Shown here: in pieces, positions 1 to 6,094 of the stretch
Layout: every line of letters begins with the position of its first letter
Position numbering within the stretch: position 1 is the stretch's first letter
From: Chloroflexota bacterium
Lineage (GTDB): Bacteria > Chloroflexota > Dehalococcoidia > JACPPY01
NCBI GenBank assembly: GCA_016189825.1
Contig: JACPRR010000092.1
Coordinates: 1 to 6,209, forward strand
Direction: 5' to 3'
Length of the DNA stretch: 6,209 nucleotides
Made by a program: the position numbers and the translations under genes
Notes under the pieces: generated by a model
The model's input: the letters and a program-made list of their open reading frames with translations, nothing else
Told to the model about the DNA's origin: nothing
Databases searched by the model: none

Positions 1-2326
1 CCTGAATGTTGTACTGGATGTGGCTCCCGCCCGAGGTAAGGAACGTCCTGGTCAAATCGGCCAGCTTGCCCATGGCTTCAGGGTTCTGCATCAAGGCGGC
101 GGGGAACTTCTGGTTCAACACGGCGGCCCTCGCTTCTTTGAACCCCGCCGTTATCGCTGACCTCATTACCCCGGTGACACCGCATTTGTCCGTGCCTCGC
201 ATCGGGGAGAGCGAGCCATCGTTCAAAGGCTCTCCCGCCTTGTGCCCGTTGGGCAGGGCGCCTACCCCCTTGCCACCATAATAGTGCCAGGCCAGGCCAT
301 GCCGGTTGATCGTATAAGGGCCGCCAAGGGGATTCTTGAACTGGTGTATCAGGTCAGCCATGGCTTGGCCCGATTGGCGCACCATGAGGTCGGCCTCTTC
401 AATGCCGTTGCCGTACTTGGGCGCTGCCAGGCACATGCGGCGGATTTCCTCGCCCCGCTCACCAGCAAAGTTGGAATCCAGGGCATCAAGCAGTTCCGCC
501 ATTGTCAGCTTCTTTTCGTCGAACACCAGTTTCTTGACGGCAAGAAGGGAATCCGCGGCATCGACATGGCCCCGGTCTCTCCAGTCCCAATTCTTGTATG
601 ACCATTGTCCCCCGACTACGAAGTCCTGGCCTTTTTCCAGGCATCCGGGCGCCAGGACCGACCACACGGGGAACCGGGCCCTTTCCTCGTCGACCCTGTG
701 GGCGGCGTAGGCCATGGCGTTGAACCGCGGCGCCATGAACTCCATCTGCTTTTTGTATGCGTCCCACAGTTCCCCGAAGCTCTGGAATGACCTTGGGTCC
801 CCTGTCTGCGCCCCCAGGAGCTTCCCTGTCATGGGGGCGACGCCGTTGTGCAGCGCCAGGTCGACCATCAAGGGCATGTTCAGGTGAGAAACCGGCCGCA
901 TCTGCCCGCGACTGCCAAGCTGACCGCCGGCTGCCGCATGCACTCACCCATGTCCCGCCCAGTCTCGAGCGTCCTCCAGGGCTTCGCCTTGCTCTACCAG
1001 GTATGCGATGACGCGGTCATCAGACATGAACTGCGGTTGACCACCGCCGACCTTGCGGTTAGTGTCCAGGGCTTTGATCAGCGCCCACCCGGGGGTCTCA
1101 GCCCGCAGCCGAAAAGTGTAATGTGGTTCCGCATACCTCAACAGCCCCGCCATGTGCAAGATGAGATAGGTGAGCTCGTTGTTCGCGTCCCGCCCGTCCG
1201 CGGTCACGCCGCCCAGGGTGACATTGCTGTGCAATGTACCCTGCACATGCTGCCCTCGCTGCACGCTCTTGACACCGTCGCGCCGGGCCAGGTTGGAAAG
1301 CAGCGTCCCTATCAGGTCGCCGGCCTGTTCCAGAGTCAGCCGGCGCTCGCGCAGGCCATCGATGAAGTACGAGTAGAACTCCTGGTCAACCCTGCCGCTC
1401 TCGTCAACGGCGTGGTCAGGACGGCACCACTGCATCGCGACGCCCCAGATCACCCTTGCCTGGATGGCCTCTTGCAGCGTGCGCGCAGGGTATTCAGGCA
1501 CCCGCTCCAGGATGCCCGCGATCTCCTCAAGCTCTACCCGCCTCGCCAGATTGTTTTCGTTTTCGGCCAGGTCCCGCGCCAGCCTGGCATAGCGATGCGC
1601 GTAGCGGACTGCTGCATCGCATACGATCGTCACGGCCTGCCAGAACCACGCTTTCCTGGCTTCAGGCTCCACCCCCATGCGGATCCGCTCGATTCCTGTT
1701 TCTGCGGCCTGCCTTACGCCGTGCAGTCCCTCGACCAAGAGTTTTCTCCAATCCGGGGTCGGGGGAGTGAGATTATACTTGCCCTGCCTGATGGTGCCGC
1801 GCGCCTTTTCCAGCTCCTCGGGCCAGTCACCATAGAGGGCTGCCAGGCTTCTGAACATGGCATCGACCGGGGTGTTCCCCAGGAAGAACCTGACCGTCTC
1901 TTCGATTGCTTCCCAGACTTCGTCTTCACACCCGGACACACGTGCGGCACTGGTCCTTATCTGGCGCTTGTCTTTCTCCATGACCTCGACCACATTGGGC
2001 GCATCATATTCCACCCACGGGTCGGCGCCACGAAAAAGCTTGGTTTGGTTCCCGACAACAAGCTGGTCCTTGAAGATTACTATGGGCAGCCTGGCCGCCC
2101 ATTTCTCCACCAGACGAGCCCAGCGGACGTCCAAGACATCTCCCTGAGTTTCCTTCCAACTCTCCATCGCGAGCACAGCGCGATCGGAAGTGATTTCCAA
2201 TTCATGCGCAAAGAACTGTTCCCGTTCCGCTCTCAACCTGGGGCTGAGCCGGATCCCATCGATCTGTCTCAACAGCCCCTCGTTGACGGCGGGCTTGCTT
2301 TCTTCTACCTTCTGTTCCAAAGCCAC
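1..2326 (-). CDS. Glycyl radical enzyme (PFL/diol-dehydratase-like) with predicted selenocysteine at the catalytic cysteine position; 3' end beyond the window
   Basis: This is a large cytoplasmic radical enzyme that would use a thiyl-type (here selenyl) residue, activated by a C-terminal glycyl radical, to open a C-X or C-C bond of an unknown substrate. Family motifs in order: GRVDQ (residues 311-315), NVTLGG followed by DGRDANNELTYL (368-387), GGGQPQF (427-433), then DWAGHG-[UGA]-VHA at codon 461. After the UGA come NMPLMVDLALHNG, PGCLEKGQDFVVGG, GALPNGHKAGEPLNDG, and GGSHIQYNIQ near residue 769 at the window edge. The RVxGY glycyl-radical loop should follow within about 70 residues outside the window. 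The frame has no stop other than the UGA across 775 codons. Length and motif order fit a normal ~830-860 aa GRE. The start is GTG at 2326, since an in-frame TAG lies at 2362-2360; its Shine-Dalgarno is weak (AGGGA 11 nt upstream). The residue two after the catalytic position is His, not the Glu of the dehydratases (GCVEP), so the substrate class cannot be assigned. A gene-caller would truncate it at 944. Family assignment is near certain; selenocysteine is strongly supported inference. Confidence 0.93.
908..937 (-). promoter_or_regulatory. Predicted bacterial SECIS hairpin
   Basis: Starting 7 nt after the UGA, the mRNA reads GCGGC-A-GCCGG, then an 8-nt apical segment CGGUCAGC, then UUGGC-A-GUCGC. 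This gives 5 bp, an A/A mismatch and 5 bp (two G-U), plus a possible C-G closing pair over a GGUCA loop. The loop GGUC lies at +19 to +22 after the UGA (window 925-922). The E. coli fdhF SECIS, recalled from memory, presents GGUC at the same offset, with the G and U that SelB needs. An additional outer GCAU/AUGC pairing is possible. No bulged U equivalent to that of fdhF is evident. Folding was done by eye. Confidence 0.75.
944..946 (-). other. In-frame UGA, predicted selenocysteine codon (Sec461)
   Basis: Read on the minus strand this TGA falls between GHG and VHA, aligned with the cysteine of the GxC loop that carries the transient radical in all characterised glycyl radical enzymes. Upstream 460 codons and downstream 314 codons are both clean GRE sequence in the same frame. 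Cys codons (TGC/TGT) are one base from TGA, so a nonsense mutation is the competing explanation. The exact placement at the one catalytic cysteine, the intact downstream frame and the adjacent hairpin all argue for recoding. Confidence 0.85.
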
Positions 2327-2645: not shown

Positions 2646-2675
2646 GATGTGCCCCATGTTGGAATTCGGACTGGC

Positions 2676-2684
2676 GGGAGGAGG
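2676..2684 (+). promoter_or_regulatory. Ribosome binding site GGGAGGAGG deciding a TTG start
   Basis: GGGAGGAGG lies 7 nt before TTG at 2692. This selects the TTG over the in-frame ATGs at 2647 and 2656, which have no Shine-Dalgarno. It also places the conserved VVDSHVH at the very N-terminus, as in the paralogue. Confidence 0.8.
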
Positions 2685-2691
2685 CATCACC

Positions 2692-3477
2692 TTGCTGGTG
2701 GTCGACTCACATGTTCATCTGGGCCTCCACTGGTACGAGCCGGCGGAGACGCTTCTTGACGAGATGGCGAGATGCGGTGTGGACAAAGCGGTGCTGGTGC
2801 ATGGAGTGACCACGTCTGACAACGGGTACGAACTCGAGTGCGTCAGGAAATACCGTGGCCGGTTCGGGGCGGTGGTCCTTGTGGATGGGCAGGATGCTGC
2901 CGCGGCAGGTAAGATGAAGAAGCTGGCCAGTAATGGGGCCATCGGTGTCAGGCTCTGGGCTGACAAGCTGTTCCCGGGGCCCGATCCTCTGGCTGTGTGG
3001 CGTGCGGCATCCGAGCTTGGCCTGCCTGTCAGTTGCGCCGGCAGACTGGAGGCCTTTGCCAGCGCAGGCTTTCGTAACCTGGTGCGTGAGTTGCCAGACC
3101 TCAAGATAGTCGTCGAGCACCTTGGGAAGGGCGCCAAACCGGAAATGTCGGAAGACCTCTTCAGCAGGGTGCTGGAGCTGGCATCCTATCCAAACGTTTA
3201 CATCAAACTGCCCGGCCTGGGGGAGCTTCTTCCGAGGCCGAAACGGACCGCGACCGACTCGGAGGTGTTCACCCAATCGCCGCCAGCGCTGAGGATGGCC
3301 TATGAAGCTTTCGGGCCGCGGCGGATGATGTGGGGCAGTGACTTCCCCCGGTGTTGTGGCAGAGAGGGCTACGCCAATGCCCTGCGCCTTCCCATGGAAA
3401 AGACCCCTTTCTTCACAGCAGAGGACAAGGAATGGATCTTCGGGAAGACGGCACTTTCAGTGTGGAGTATCGAGTAA
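2692..3477 (+). CDS. Amidohydrolase-2 family (COG3618-like) metal-dependent hydrolase
   Basis: A 261-aa cytoplasmic TIM-barrel hydrolase of the family that includes 2-pyrone-4,6-dicarboxylate lactonases and related lactone or C-C hydrolases and decarboxylases. Visible motifs are the N-terminal HxH (VDSHVH, His7 and His9), GVDKAVLV (about 30-37), an EHLGK histidine at 143, YIKLPGLGE, and the MMWGSDFP strand carrying the catalytic Asp217. All expected catalytic positions are present and the length is normal for the family. The TTG start is chosen from the strong GGGAGGAGG site and from homology with the paralogue. It is the first gene of the rightward transcript, divergent from the GRE, and its sequence is clearly paralogous to the next gene. 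The shared promoter region suggests it acts in the same pathway as the GRE. The substrate is not identifiable; lactone, cyclic amide or carboxylate are all possible. It ends with TAA. Confidence 0.9.
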   Translation: MLVVDSHVHLGLHWYEPAETLLDEMARCGVDKAVLVHGVTTSDNGYELECVRKYRGRFGAVVLVDGQDAAAAGKMKKLASNGAIGVRLWADKLFPGPDPLAVWRAASELGLPVSCAGRLEAFASAGFRNLVRELPDLKIVVEHLGKGAKPEMSEDLFSRVLELASYPNVYIKLPGLGELLPRPKRTATDSEVFTQSPPALRMAYEAFGPRRMMWGSDFPRCCGREGYANALRLPMEKTPFFTAEDKEWIFGKTALSVWSIE

Positions 3478-3511
3478 CGCTTGGTTGTACGACTGAGCGC
3501 AATGGGTTTCG

Positions 3512-3539
3512 CCTCTCCCCTCGGAGGATTAAGGAGAGG
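3512..3539. repeat. GC-rich inverted repeat between the hydrolase genes
   Basis: CCTCTCC (3512-3518) can pair with GGAGAGG (3533-3539) around a 14-nt segment that contains its own small CCTCGGAGG hairpin. There is no T-tract, so it is not a canonical intrinsic terminator. Confidence 0.45.
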
Positions 3540-3578
3540 GGGCTCCATGCCGCCAACGGTAGCCAGTCACCCGCTCCC

Positions 3579-3614
3579 TACCCTCTCCCTACCCTCTCCC
3601 TCGAAGGGAGAGGG
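3579..3614. repeat. Tandem TACCCTCTCCC plus perfect 10-bp hairpin
   Basis: TACCCTCTCCC occurs twice in tandem (3579-3589 and 3590-3600). The second copy forms a perfect palindrome, CCCTCTCCCT-cga-AGGGAGAGGG (3592-3614). No run of T follows, so a role in mRNA stabilisation or attenuation between the two hydrolases is as likely as termination. The form resembles dispersed intergenic CCCTCTCCC-type hairpins seen in many GC-rich genomes. The rest of 3478-3735 shows nothing further. Confidence 0.7.
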
Positions 3615-3724
3615 AGAATCTCGACACGTCGGGACGCTGCAACCATTATGTGGGACAATACGAGCAGGTACTAGCTTTGCGCCCTCGGGGGCCAGTTCGC
3701 GTCCTTCCCAACAGGAAGAGGATG

Positions 3725-3731
3725 AAAGGAG
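3725..3731 (+). promoter_or_regulatory. Ribosome binding site AAAGGAG for the second hydrolase
   Basis: AAAGGAG lies 4 nt before an in-frame TTG at 3736 and 22 nt before the ATG at 3754. The spacing favours TTG although it is slightly short; the ATG would lack a usable site. Confidence 0.6.
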
Positions 3732-3735
3732 AGCA

Positions 3736-4560
3736 TTGAAAGAAAAAACGGCCATGGTCATCGTCGACTCACACTGCCACGCTTCCCCGTACTGGTTTGA
3801 GCCGGTGGAAGTCCTGCTATTCCAGATGGATAGGAACGGGGTGGACAAGGCAACACTGGTCCAATTCTCGGGCCAAACAGACAATAGTTATATTCTCGAC
3901 TGCGTGCGCCGCTACCCCGGGCGCTTTTCCGCAGTGGTCGGCATAGACACCGACCGGGTTGACGCACCCGTCATCTTGAAGCAGCTCGTTAAGCAGGGGG
4001 CTGAGGGTATTCGCCTCAGGGCCACTACCCGCTCTCCCGGGAAGGACCCGCTTGCTATCTGGCGGGCCTGCGCCGAAATGGGACTCCCGGTGACCTGCGG
4101 CGGAGAAAAGGAGCAATTCGCTTCTGAGGGGTTCAGCACTTTGGTCAGGGCATTGCCGGACCTGGCGATCATAATCGAGCACCTGGGGGACGCAAGAGAC
4201 GGAGAACAGCCCCCTTATGATGCTTACCGGCGGGTGCTGGCCCTTTCACAACACCCGAACACCTATATCAAGGTCGGCGGGCTCGGTGAGATTTGCCCCA
4301 GGCCCAAGCCGTTCCGGCAGCCGTTTCCTTTTGGACCGGTACCTCCGTTGGTGGAGATGGCCTACAGAGCCTTCGGAGCTTCCCGTATGCTGTGGGGGAG
4401 CAACTACCCACCCAGCGCCCACGTCGAAGGGTATGCCAACACCCTGCACTGGCTCGATGACCATGTGAGGAGCTTCTGCACCGAGAAAGACCGGAGTTGG
4501 ATTTTTGGTGAGACCGCGCTTTCACTTTACAAGCTCAGGATCCCTCCGTCTGATAACTAA
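3736..4560 (+). CDS. Amidohydrolase-2 family paralogue with Asp-to-Asn change in the active-site strand
   Basis: A 274-aa paralogue of the upstream hydrolase, collinear along its whole length: VDSHCH (His13, His15), GVDKATLV, RRYPGRFSAVV, EHLG (His149), YIKVGGLGE, SRMLWGSNYP, GYANTL and WIFGETALS. It retains HxH and the strand-5-region His. However, the usual WGSD motif reads WGSN, with Asn223 (AAC) where amidohydrolases place the metal-binding or proton-transfer Asp. It may therefore use a different mechanism, act on a different substrate, or serve as a partner of the upstream enzyme. The start is TTG 3736 or ATG 3754; the open frame extends upstream to 3481 through hairpin repeats and is not coding there. 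It probably shares the transcript of the first hydrolase, 258 nt downstream. Its TAA stop lies inside a palindromic repeat. Substrate unknown. Confidence 0.87.
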   Translation: MKEKTAMVIVDSHCHASPYWFEPVEVLLFQMDRNGVDKATLVQFSGQTDNSYILDCVRRYPGRFSAVVGIDTDRVDAPVILKQLVKQGAEGIRLRATTRSPGKDPLAIWRACAEMGLPVTCGGEKEQFASEGFSTLVRALPDLAIIIEHLGDARDGEQPPYDAYRRVLALSQHPNTYIKVGGLGEICPRPKPFRQPFPFGPVPPLVEMAYRAFGASRMLWGSNYPPSAHVEGYANTLHWLDDHVRSFCTEKDRSWIFGETALSLYKLRIPPSDN

Positions 4561-4660
4561 TACGAACGCCTTAGAACCTGTGGCATGGCGCACAGGCAGG
4601 TATCCTTCCATGAAGGGTGCCACCCATAGCGATGCAACAACCCTTAGTTCGTTTGTATTA
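4558..4660 (+). repeat. Palindromic interspersed repeat, copy 2
   Basis: A 103-bp copy bounded by TAATACGAACGCCTTAG and CTTAGTTCGTTTGTATTA. The outer arms match the other copies, but the centre differs: GTGGCA (4580-4585) pairs with TGCCAC (4618-4623) around an inner CCTTC-cat-GAAGG hairpin. Its first three bases are the stop codon of the second hydrolase. It may act as a transcript-end hairpin but lacks a T-tract. Confidence 0.88.
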
Positions 4661-4663
4661 GCT

Positions 4664-4692
4664 TTGACAAAGGCGACGGCATAAGGTAATCT
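4664..4692 (+). promoter_or_regulatory. Sigma-70-type promoter for the fused Lrp regulator
   Basis: TTGACA (4664-4669), a 17-nt spacer and TAATCT (4687-4692) lie in the 59-bp gap between repeat copies 2 and 3. The start would be near 4699, so the ~120-nt leader contains all of repeat copy 3. This gives the regulator its own promoter, independent of the hydrolase transcript. Confidence 0.7.
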
Positions 4693-4719: not shown

Positions 4720-4813
4720 TAATACGAACGCCTTAGAATTTATGGCATGGCGCTCAGGCATGGACGCCTGTGCCACCCATAGGGATGCGACATCACTTAG
4801 TTCGCTTGTATTA
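4720..4813 (+). repeat. Palindromic interspersed repeat, copy 3
   Basis: A 94-bp copy from TAATACGAACGCCTTAG to CTTAGTTCGCTTGTATTA with the core GCTCAGGC/GCCTGTGC (one mismatch against the perfect stem of copy 1). It ends 5 bp before the first ATG of the regulator frame and would form a hairpin in its 5' leader. Confidence 0.88.
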
Positions 4814-4818
4814 ATGCC

Positions 4819-6048
4819 ATGAAGATGCGGCGCGAAAGTCGGCGTGAGGACGCCATAGCTGTCCACGGTGGTGTGCGCGATGGAAAGTCACAGTCCAGGC
4901 GCCGCGGAAAACAGCAGGACGGCTCCGTGACCCCGGCGTCCGCCGGGCCAGAGGACCAGTCACGTGTGAAGGCAACCGGTCCGCTTCAAGGGACCGGCCA
5001 CAAGAATGCCTTCTCAGAAACTCAGATAGACGGGTGCGCCTGGGATGGATACATCGATTCCAGAGATCTCGCCATCATCCTGGAGCTACAAAAGGATGGC
5101 CGCCAGAGCGATGCCCGGATATCCCGCCAGTTGGGCACCAGCGAAGTAACTATCAGGAAGCGCATATCCCGGCTCATAGGCGAGGGGACTATACGAGTTG
5201 TCGCGGCGCCGGTCCCCTGGATGGTAGGGTACTGCGTTGACGCGCGCATAGGCTTGAGGGTCGACCTTTCGCGAGTCAAACAAATCCTGGAGCAGTTGGT
5301 CGGAATGGCCACTGTTCATTTTGTGGCCCTTACTGCGGGCCGGCACAACATCATGATATCGGTTGCTTTCCGCTCACCCCACGAGCTATCGGACTTCCTG
5401 GCCAATGACCTCTCAACGGTGCCGGGCATATTCAGAAGCGATACGTTTGTGACTCTGGAAACCCGGAAGCGGCAGCATGACATTCTGCAGCCCGTTCGAA
5501 AGGCTGCTCATCGATTAAGACAAAAGACCGCCCGGGTGTCCGCCACCGGGGCCACGCCGGTGCGGACGACCGGCAAGATGATCGACCGCGCAGACTGCGA
5601 CATCATCGTAGAGTTGCAGCGGGATGCCCGGCAGAGCGACGCGACCCTGGCTCGCAAACTTGCCCTCAGCGAAGCCACAGTGCGGCGCCGGATCAAGCGG
5701 CTGATAGGGGACCATGTCATAGAGGTCGTGCCGGCCATGCTGCCAGCGAAGGTTGGCTACGTGACCTCTGCCCACATAGGGCTTCAAGTGTCTCCTGCCA
5801 TGCTCGACGCGGTGCTCGGAAGACTGGTCGAAATGCCGAGGGTACATACCGTAGTGCTGACCGCCGGGGAATTCGACATTCTCGCGTGGGCCTCGTTTGT
5901 CTCTCCGTCAGAGCTGTCCAGCTTCATCAGGAATGACATATCCTCCATCTCCGGCGTGCTGAGAACTGAGACCATGATCGATTTGGACATCAAGAAGATG
6001 GAACTGGGGATCTTGCCGTCTCAGAGCGCCACAGAAGCTTCGGGCTAA
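4819..6048 (+). CDS. Tandem-fused Lrp/AsnC-type transcriptional regulator (HTH-RAM-HTH-RAM)
   Basis: The 409-aa product contains two complete Lrp/AsnC units. Unit 1 has an HTH at about residues 79-128 (IDSRDLAIILELQKDGRQSD, then SEVTIRKRISRLIGEG) and a RAM ligand-binding/dimerisation domain to about 225. Unit 2 has an HTH from 255 (IDRADCDIIVELQRDARQSD, then SEATVRRRIKRLIGD) and a RAM domain to about 400. A 25-30 residue basic linker joins them. A normal Lrp protein is one unit of ~150 aa acting as a dimer or octamer, so this chain is a covalent pseudo-dimer. The first ~78 residues are basic and of low complexity. ATG 4819 has no Shine-Dalgarno and follows a repeat directly; GTG 4927 has AGGA 7 nt upstream and gives a 373-aa protein, so the start is uncertain. 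It probably senses a pathway metabolite and controls the GRE/hydrolase divergent promoters (inference from position). Its stop TAA lies in repeat copy 4. Confidence 0.88.
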   Translation: MKMRRESRREDAIAVHGGVRDGKSQSRRRGKQQDGSVTPASAGPEDQSRVKATGPLQGTGHKNAFSETQIDGCAWDGYIDSRDLAIILELQKDGRQSDARISRQLGTSEVTIRKRISRLIGEGTIRVVAAPVPWMVGYCVDARIGLRVDLSRVKQILEQLVGMATVHFVALTAGRHNIMISVAFRSPHELSDFLANDLSTVPGIFRSDTFVTLETRKRQHDILQPVRKAAHRLRQKTARVSATGATPVRTTGKMIDRADCDIIVELQRDARQSDATLARKLALSEATVRRRIKRLIGDHVIEVVPAMLPAKVGYVTSAHIGLQVSPAMLDAVLGRLVEMPRVHTVVLTAGEFDILAWASFVSPSELSSFIRNDISSISGVLRTETMIDLDIKKMELGILPSQSATEASG

Positions 6049-6094
6049 TACAAACGCCTCAGAATTTGTGGCATGGCGCACAGGCAGGGACGCC
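6046..6094 (+). repeat. Palindromic interspersed repeat, copy 4, interrupted
   Basis: It begins TAATACAAACGCCTCAG and follows the other copies through GCACAGGC-aggga-cgcc, then departs from them at about 6094. The right half (ATAGGGATGC... and the CTTAGTTCG arm) is missing within the window. Its first three bases are the stop codon of the regulator. Confidence 0.82.

Follow-up and report, generated by a model that had tools for sequence, protein, structure and literature searches.

Predicted selenocysteine at the radical-relay residue of a Chloroflexota glycyl radical enzyme

Glycyl radical enzymes (GREs) are understood to require a thiyl radical on cysteine; in this family it is carried by the Cys of the GCVxP motif. 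The closest described branch to the enzyme considered here consists of the glycerol/propanediol dehydratases, choline trimethylamine-lyase, and hydroxyproline dehydratase. Our subject is a GRE gene found on a 6,209-base stretch of DNA from a Chloroflexota bacterium (GenBank assembly GCA_016189825.1, contig JACPRR010000092.1), hereafter the window, which is the entire contig and belongs to a 1.41-Mb draft genome (282 contigs; 62% complete). This GRE differs from the enzymes of that branch in possessing UGA for the Cys codon and His for Glu two residues further on. The UGA is, with high probability, best read as selenocysteine (Sec) at the radical-relay residue, since it is the sole stop of the frame and lies on a column that is otherwise all Cys, since relatives stop at the same codon, and since the second half of the gene is conserved. 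The usual roles of Sec are two-electron redox chemistry and metal binding; in E. coli formate dehydrogenase H (fdhF) it binds molybdenum. The window gene shares with fdhF an in-frame UGA followed by a hairpin with an apical GGUC at nucleotides 22–25, counted from the U of UGA (for fdhF, as read from NC_000913), a spacing also present in the FdhA gene of G001, the only genome of the same family examined (81% complete). The window gene encodes a different enzyme from fdhF, however, and its Sec would carry a radical.

Laboratory substitutions of Sec into thiyl radical enzymes are reportedly the subject, judging by its title, of Caceres et al. 2022 (Methods Enzymol. 662); the substitution in the window is, by comparison, natural and predicted. 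The earlier note on this DNA, made from its letters alone, knew of no characterized GRE with Sec at the catalytic site, and the open-access literature searched, a scope outside which most subscription papers fall, likewise yielded no report of Sec in a GRE. Of the papers combining selenocysteine and GRE wording, none reports a Sec-containing GRE in its available text (PMC10591478, PMC9176816, PMC11574389, PMC7593587, PMC11841067, PMC7763103). Reviews and surveys of prokaryotic selenoproteins from 2026 (PMC13188914), 2025 (PMC12013277), 2022 (PMC9312934), 2016 (PMC5029168), and 2005 (PMC1088965) contain neither "glycyl" nor "formate lyase" in the text accessible to us.

The GRE frame runs from 2326 to 2 on the minus strand and comprises 775 codons, the only stop being a TGA at 946..944 (codon 461). 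The N-terminal part of 460 codons (947..2326, minus strand), recognized by its PFL-like domain and its homologues, precedes it; 314 codons in the same frame follow (2..943, minus strand) and are cut by the contig end ahead of the glycyl radical loop. The Pfam PFL-like domain spans the stop (residues 42–674; 425.9 bits, cut-off 24.3), and a match to Pfam Gly_radical (PF01228) begins at residue 706 (27.0 bits, cut-off 22.2). The frame possesses the PFL-like barrel domain of the GRE superfamily; a catalytic Cys is literally absent, TGA (predicted Sec) being found at the finger loop instead. None of the NCBIfam GRE subfamily models reached its curated cut-off (TIGR01774, 347.9 versus 678.2 bits; seven other models scored lower). 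HMMER alignments place codon 461 opposite the Cys of the GCVxP motif in CutC (9f3w) and glycerol dehydratase (1r8w), and the other six Cys codons of the frame are TGC or TGT. In the translation NVTLGG lies ahead of the stop, with GALPNGHKAGEPL and GGSHIQYNIQ beyond it. The RVxGY loop of the window enzyme would lie past the contig end; RVAGYSAYW is present in all seven close C-terminal halves examined. The lone UGA had been said to sit exactly at the codon for the thiyl-radical Cys, between undamaged GRE motifs, and on both points frame, alignments, and relatives agree. Residue 463 is His where CutC has Glu (position 491, according to PDB titles), the second residue beyond the catalytic Cys; of the nine full-length homologues closest to the window GRE, one has Glu at this position and the others N, Q, G, or S. 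Since the Glu of CutC is replaced and the position is variable within the subfamily, the window GRE is probably not an ordinary diol dehydratase.

Comparison across the stop, which the earlier note had suggested, revealed Cys in every relative that crosses the column and five further proteins ending at the same residue. All 31 tblastn rows of relatives crossing it read TGC or TGT (two genes appear twice). Three protein searches gave at least 313 proteins besides P0001 (two contributed their best 120 each, the third 93); among the matches listed, 230 have a best alignment that extends across the column and all 230 possess Cys, such that an in-frame UGA is aligned with a conserved Cys of the homologues, as is expected of a selenoprotein. 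A search with the N-terminal 460 residues identified P0003, P0005, P0006, P0007, and P0008, which are 62–67% identical and all end exactly at residue 460, bringing the proteins with a stop at codon 461 to six, the window copy included. This search could not return proteins much longer than 805 amino acid residues; full-length forms were sought separately, and nine homologues at 62–67% identity all possess the catalytic Cys. The matching second halves were recovered with the C-terminal half as query. P0003 and its counterpart P0100 come from contigs that are both 26,891 bases in length, P0007 and P0098 from contigs of 2,452 bases, and P0099 and P0008 from contigs of 2,803 bases, the last pair having neighboring locus tags (HYY32_00270 and HYY32_00265); the contigs of P0096 and P0004 are likewise equal in length (17,404), P0004 entering a frameshift ahead of the stop site. 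The annotated start of P0096 and P0097 is the codon directly after the stop, as would result from a gene caller resuming beyond an in-frame stop. Where named, the source of the stop-bearing relatives is Chloroflexota. The shared stop position in five further homologues argues against a lone sequencing error.

The source genome also possesses a Cys paralogue of the same subfamily (contig C137; L113:1424-3898), which is 67% identical to the window GRE and differs from it in having TGC at the catalytic codon and in its gene neighbors, which encode enoyl-CoA hydratase and a CoA-acylating methylmalonate-semialdehyde dehydrogenase. Nonsynonymous divergence (dN) from this paralogue is 0.19 after the stop versus 0.29 before it, values that indicate purifying selection on the C-terminal part. 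A lack of Sec-bearing relatives together with decay elsewhere in the gene had been named as grounds for abandoning the prediction; the dN values and the absence of any other stop reveal no such decay. A maximum-likelihood tree of 29 rows places the stop and Cys forms within one subfamily (100/100 support), where they are interleaved, many of the inner branches being weak. The stop label requires at least three changes on the best tree; by this tree the stop may have arisen once or repeatedly. Known selenoprotein families commonly include both Sec and Cys members. A G-x-G sequence before the stop (Gly at −3 and −1) is found in 6/6 stop forms versus 2/10 Cys forms (Fisher p 0.007, for rows that are related) and is perhaps an adaptation of the loop; since the rows are related it is noted here and not used as proof. 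Two observations on other GREs may be recorded separately. A related GRE match in genome G037 (C62, L032) contains one internal TAG, its catalytic Cys codon being intact, and genomes G027 and G045 of the class possess 17 and 12 GRE matches, an unusual expansion of Cys-type GREs.

With respect to the machinery for Sec, the source genome contains selA, scoring 280 bits against a cut-off of 267.9, as a 240-residue N-terminal part that adjoins a contig end. In G001, selB (382.6 bits) and selD (381.6 bits) are adjacent; its SelD (L112:9854-10900) has an in-frame TGA within GUAAK, the usual Sec site of this protein, and its formate dehydrogenase FdhA (L120; 857.9 bits) has one TGA, in CARLUHSP. From selA here and from selB, selD, and the UGA-containing SelD and FdhA of G001, the family of the source genome very probably decodes UGA as Sec. 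A complete lack of Sec machinery, which was to have told against the prediction, is accordingly not what is found. Among 60 genomes, the source genome included, selA exceeds its cut-off in 27 and selB in 31. Matches to formate dehydrogenase in the source genome are all below cut-off, and none contains TGA. Several candidates were rejected. The best SelB-like match of the source genome (C206) lies in an EF-Tu-like open reading frame (ORF) of 422 amino acid residues beside Thr and Tyr tRNA genes, a second (C184) in a 692-residue ORF taken for EF-G or a relative, and a SelD-like match on C104 (66 bits, cut-off 125) resembles ThiL, these three being named by eye; ARAGORN assigned the tRNA-Sec-like matches (all four of the source genome and the best 4 of 12 in G001) to Ser, Tyr, or Leu tRNAs. 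As a positive control, both programs detected a true tRNA-Sec in another genome of the class.

A hairpin follows the TGA in the predicted mRNA (903..942, minus strand), with GGUCA as its apical loop and GGUC at 922-925. The published model of the bacterial selenocysteine insertion sequence (bSECIS) specifies a loop of 3–9 nucleotides, G in the first two loop positions, a location 16–37 nucleotides from the UGA, and a minimum free energy of −7.5 or lower (PMC13188914, in its available text). The window hairpin conforms to it (loop GGUCA, spacing 18, minimum free energy −16.8 to −22.3), as do many controls, and the hairpin carries little weight. Rfam gave no match over the window at E values up to 1 and only two chance-level matches over the 121 bases surrounding the TGA.

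A number of these and other results weigh against Sec. When UGA is put in place of the Cys codon in Cys relatives, 15 of 50 conform to the bSECIS model, 7 of them with a GG/GU loop; of 2000 synonymous resamplings, 1594 conform (1192 with a GG/GU loop); the Cys paralogue has a similar hairpin, and the folding energies of four stretches are ordinary (z −0.91, −0.33, +1.05, and −0.47). The hairpin is thus weak evidence for Sec. The earlier note had pointed to selA, selB, selC, and selD as the genes to be looked for, and this was borne out in the case of selA; in the source genome, at 62% completeness, none of selB, selD, and tRNA-Sec (selC) exceeds its cut-off. G001 in turn has no selA match, and none of its tRNA-Sec matches exceeds the Rfam cut-off, such that the full Sec set is not seen together in any one genome. 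For new selenoprotein families the published criterion requires that two or more different sequences conserve the UGA (PMC1088965, in its available text); here a stop at the same codon is present in six proteins and has been read as TGA from DNA in the window copy alone, such that the five relatives, in which the stop is presumably TGA, could have TAA or TAG. Scans of GTDB-species contigs and viral contigs did not return the DNA of these relatives. No other GRE match with an internal TGA was found among the matches listed, drawn from 393 genomes of the class and 400 of the phylum (in most of which at most two candidates were scored), and a profile search of the 400 phylum genomes at E values up to 1e-60 gave a match in the source genome alone.

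If the UGA were instead a real stop, the gene would be a split GRE whose two polypeptides pair into a barrel that has no Cys at the relay site. A GTG directly after the TGA in the window, the starts that gene callers assign to P0096 and P0097 immediately past the stop, and the conservation of both halves would fit such an arrangement; yet an enzyme deprived of the relay Cys should be inactive, the reading frame continues unshifted past the stop in the window, and P0098, P0099, and P0100 start elsewhere behind it, leaving no common start conserved, so that we consider a split enzyme very unlikely. A nonsense mutation or assembly error in an ordinary Cys GRE would require only one base change, TGC or TGT being that close to TGA and the paralogue having TGC, and the contig belongs to a fragmented draft genome. 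Such an accident would nevertheless have had to strike the catalytic codon, which accounts for 1 of the 293 single-base changes that create a stop in the paralogue (TGC to TGA), in a gene that shows no decay elsewhere and has five homologues (62–67% identity) stopping at the same codon; it is scarcely credible. A tRNA other than tRNA-Sec might recode UGA to Cys or another residue, and the want of a tRNA-Sec over cut-off in both the source genome and G001 would agree with this. The six other Cys codons are TGC or TGT, however, selA is present in the source genome, the UGAs of G001 in SelD and FdhA occupy classical Sec sites, and the available text of PMC5424206, which deals with unusual coding of cysteine in Chloroflexi, makes no mention of UGA, all of which render recoding of this kind very improbable.

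Sec at the catalytic Cys, as originally predicted from the letters, is supported by the relatives, the Sec machinery, and the conserved C-terminal half, and from these we infer its insertion and its radical chemistry. It is probable that the Chloroflexota GRE group with Sec at the radical-relay residue is a natural selenyl-radical enzyme, in which hydrogen-atom chemistry is performed by a selenium-centered radical. SelB with Sec-tRNA would read the UGA, aided by the hairpin at 903-942; a radical S-adenosylmethionine (radical-SAM) activase would make the glycyl radical on the RVAGY loop, which lies off the contig; this radical would move to Sec461 as a selenyl radical, which would take up a substrate hydrogen atom and subsequently return one. 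The Se-H bond is weaker than S-H, from which it would follow that transfer from glycine is easier and abstraction from the substrate harder; for the same reason a weak C-H bond is probable in the substrate, a gain in robustness being suggested as an alternative.

If true, this would constitute a new selenoprotein family and extend the role of Sec beyond two-electron redox and metal binding. The dependence of the GRE reaction on S-H bond strength would become directly testable, natural Cys and predicted Sec forms being found in one subfamily and even, at 67% identity, in one genome. Annotation divides genes of this type into two broken halves, the pairs described above being examples, and surveys of the radical enzymes of anaerobic bacteria would miss them.

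Four products of the window were scanned, and the GRE gene has as its neighbors a pair of amidohydrolase-2 genes and the gene of a doubled Lrp/AsnC regulator. No radical-SAM activase was found among these four products; the contig is short and the gene may lie elsewhere. The two tandem amidohydrolase-2 family genes (2647-3477 and 3481-4560) are divergent from the GRE gene, and the second, as listed, has a long 5′ extension ahead of its domain. The Lrp/AsnC regulator (4819-6048) is a single protein of 409 amino acid residues in which the helix-turn-helix and ligand-binding domains are present in two complete copies. A dispersed repeat of approximately 94–100 nucleotides (TAATACRAACGCCTTAGAA ... 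TTAGTTCGNTTGTATTA) is found at 2552-2651, 4558-4666, 4720-4819, and 6046-6094, as three full copies and one partial copy, all intergenic; it resembles a small mobile or palindromic element.
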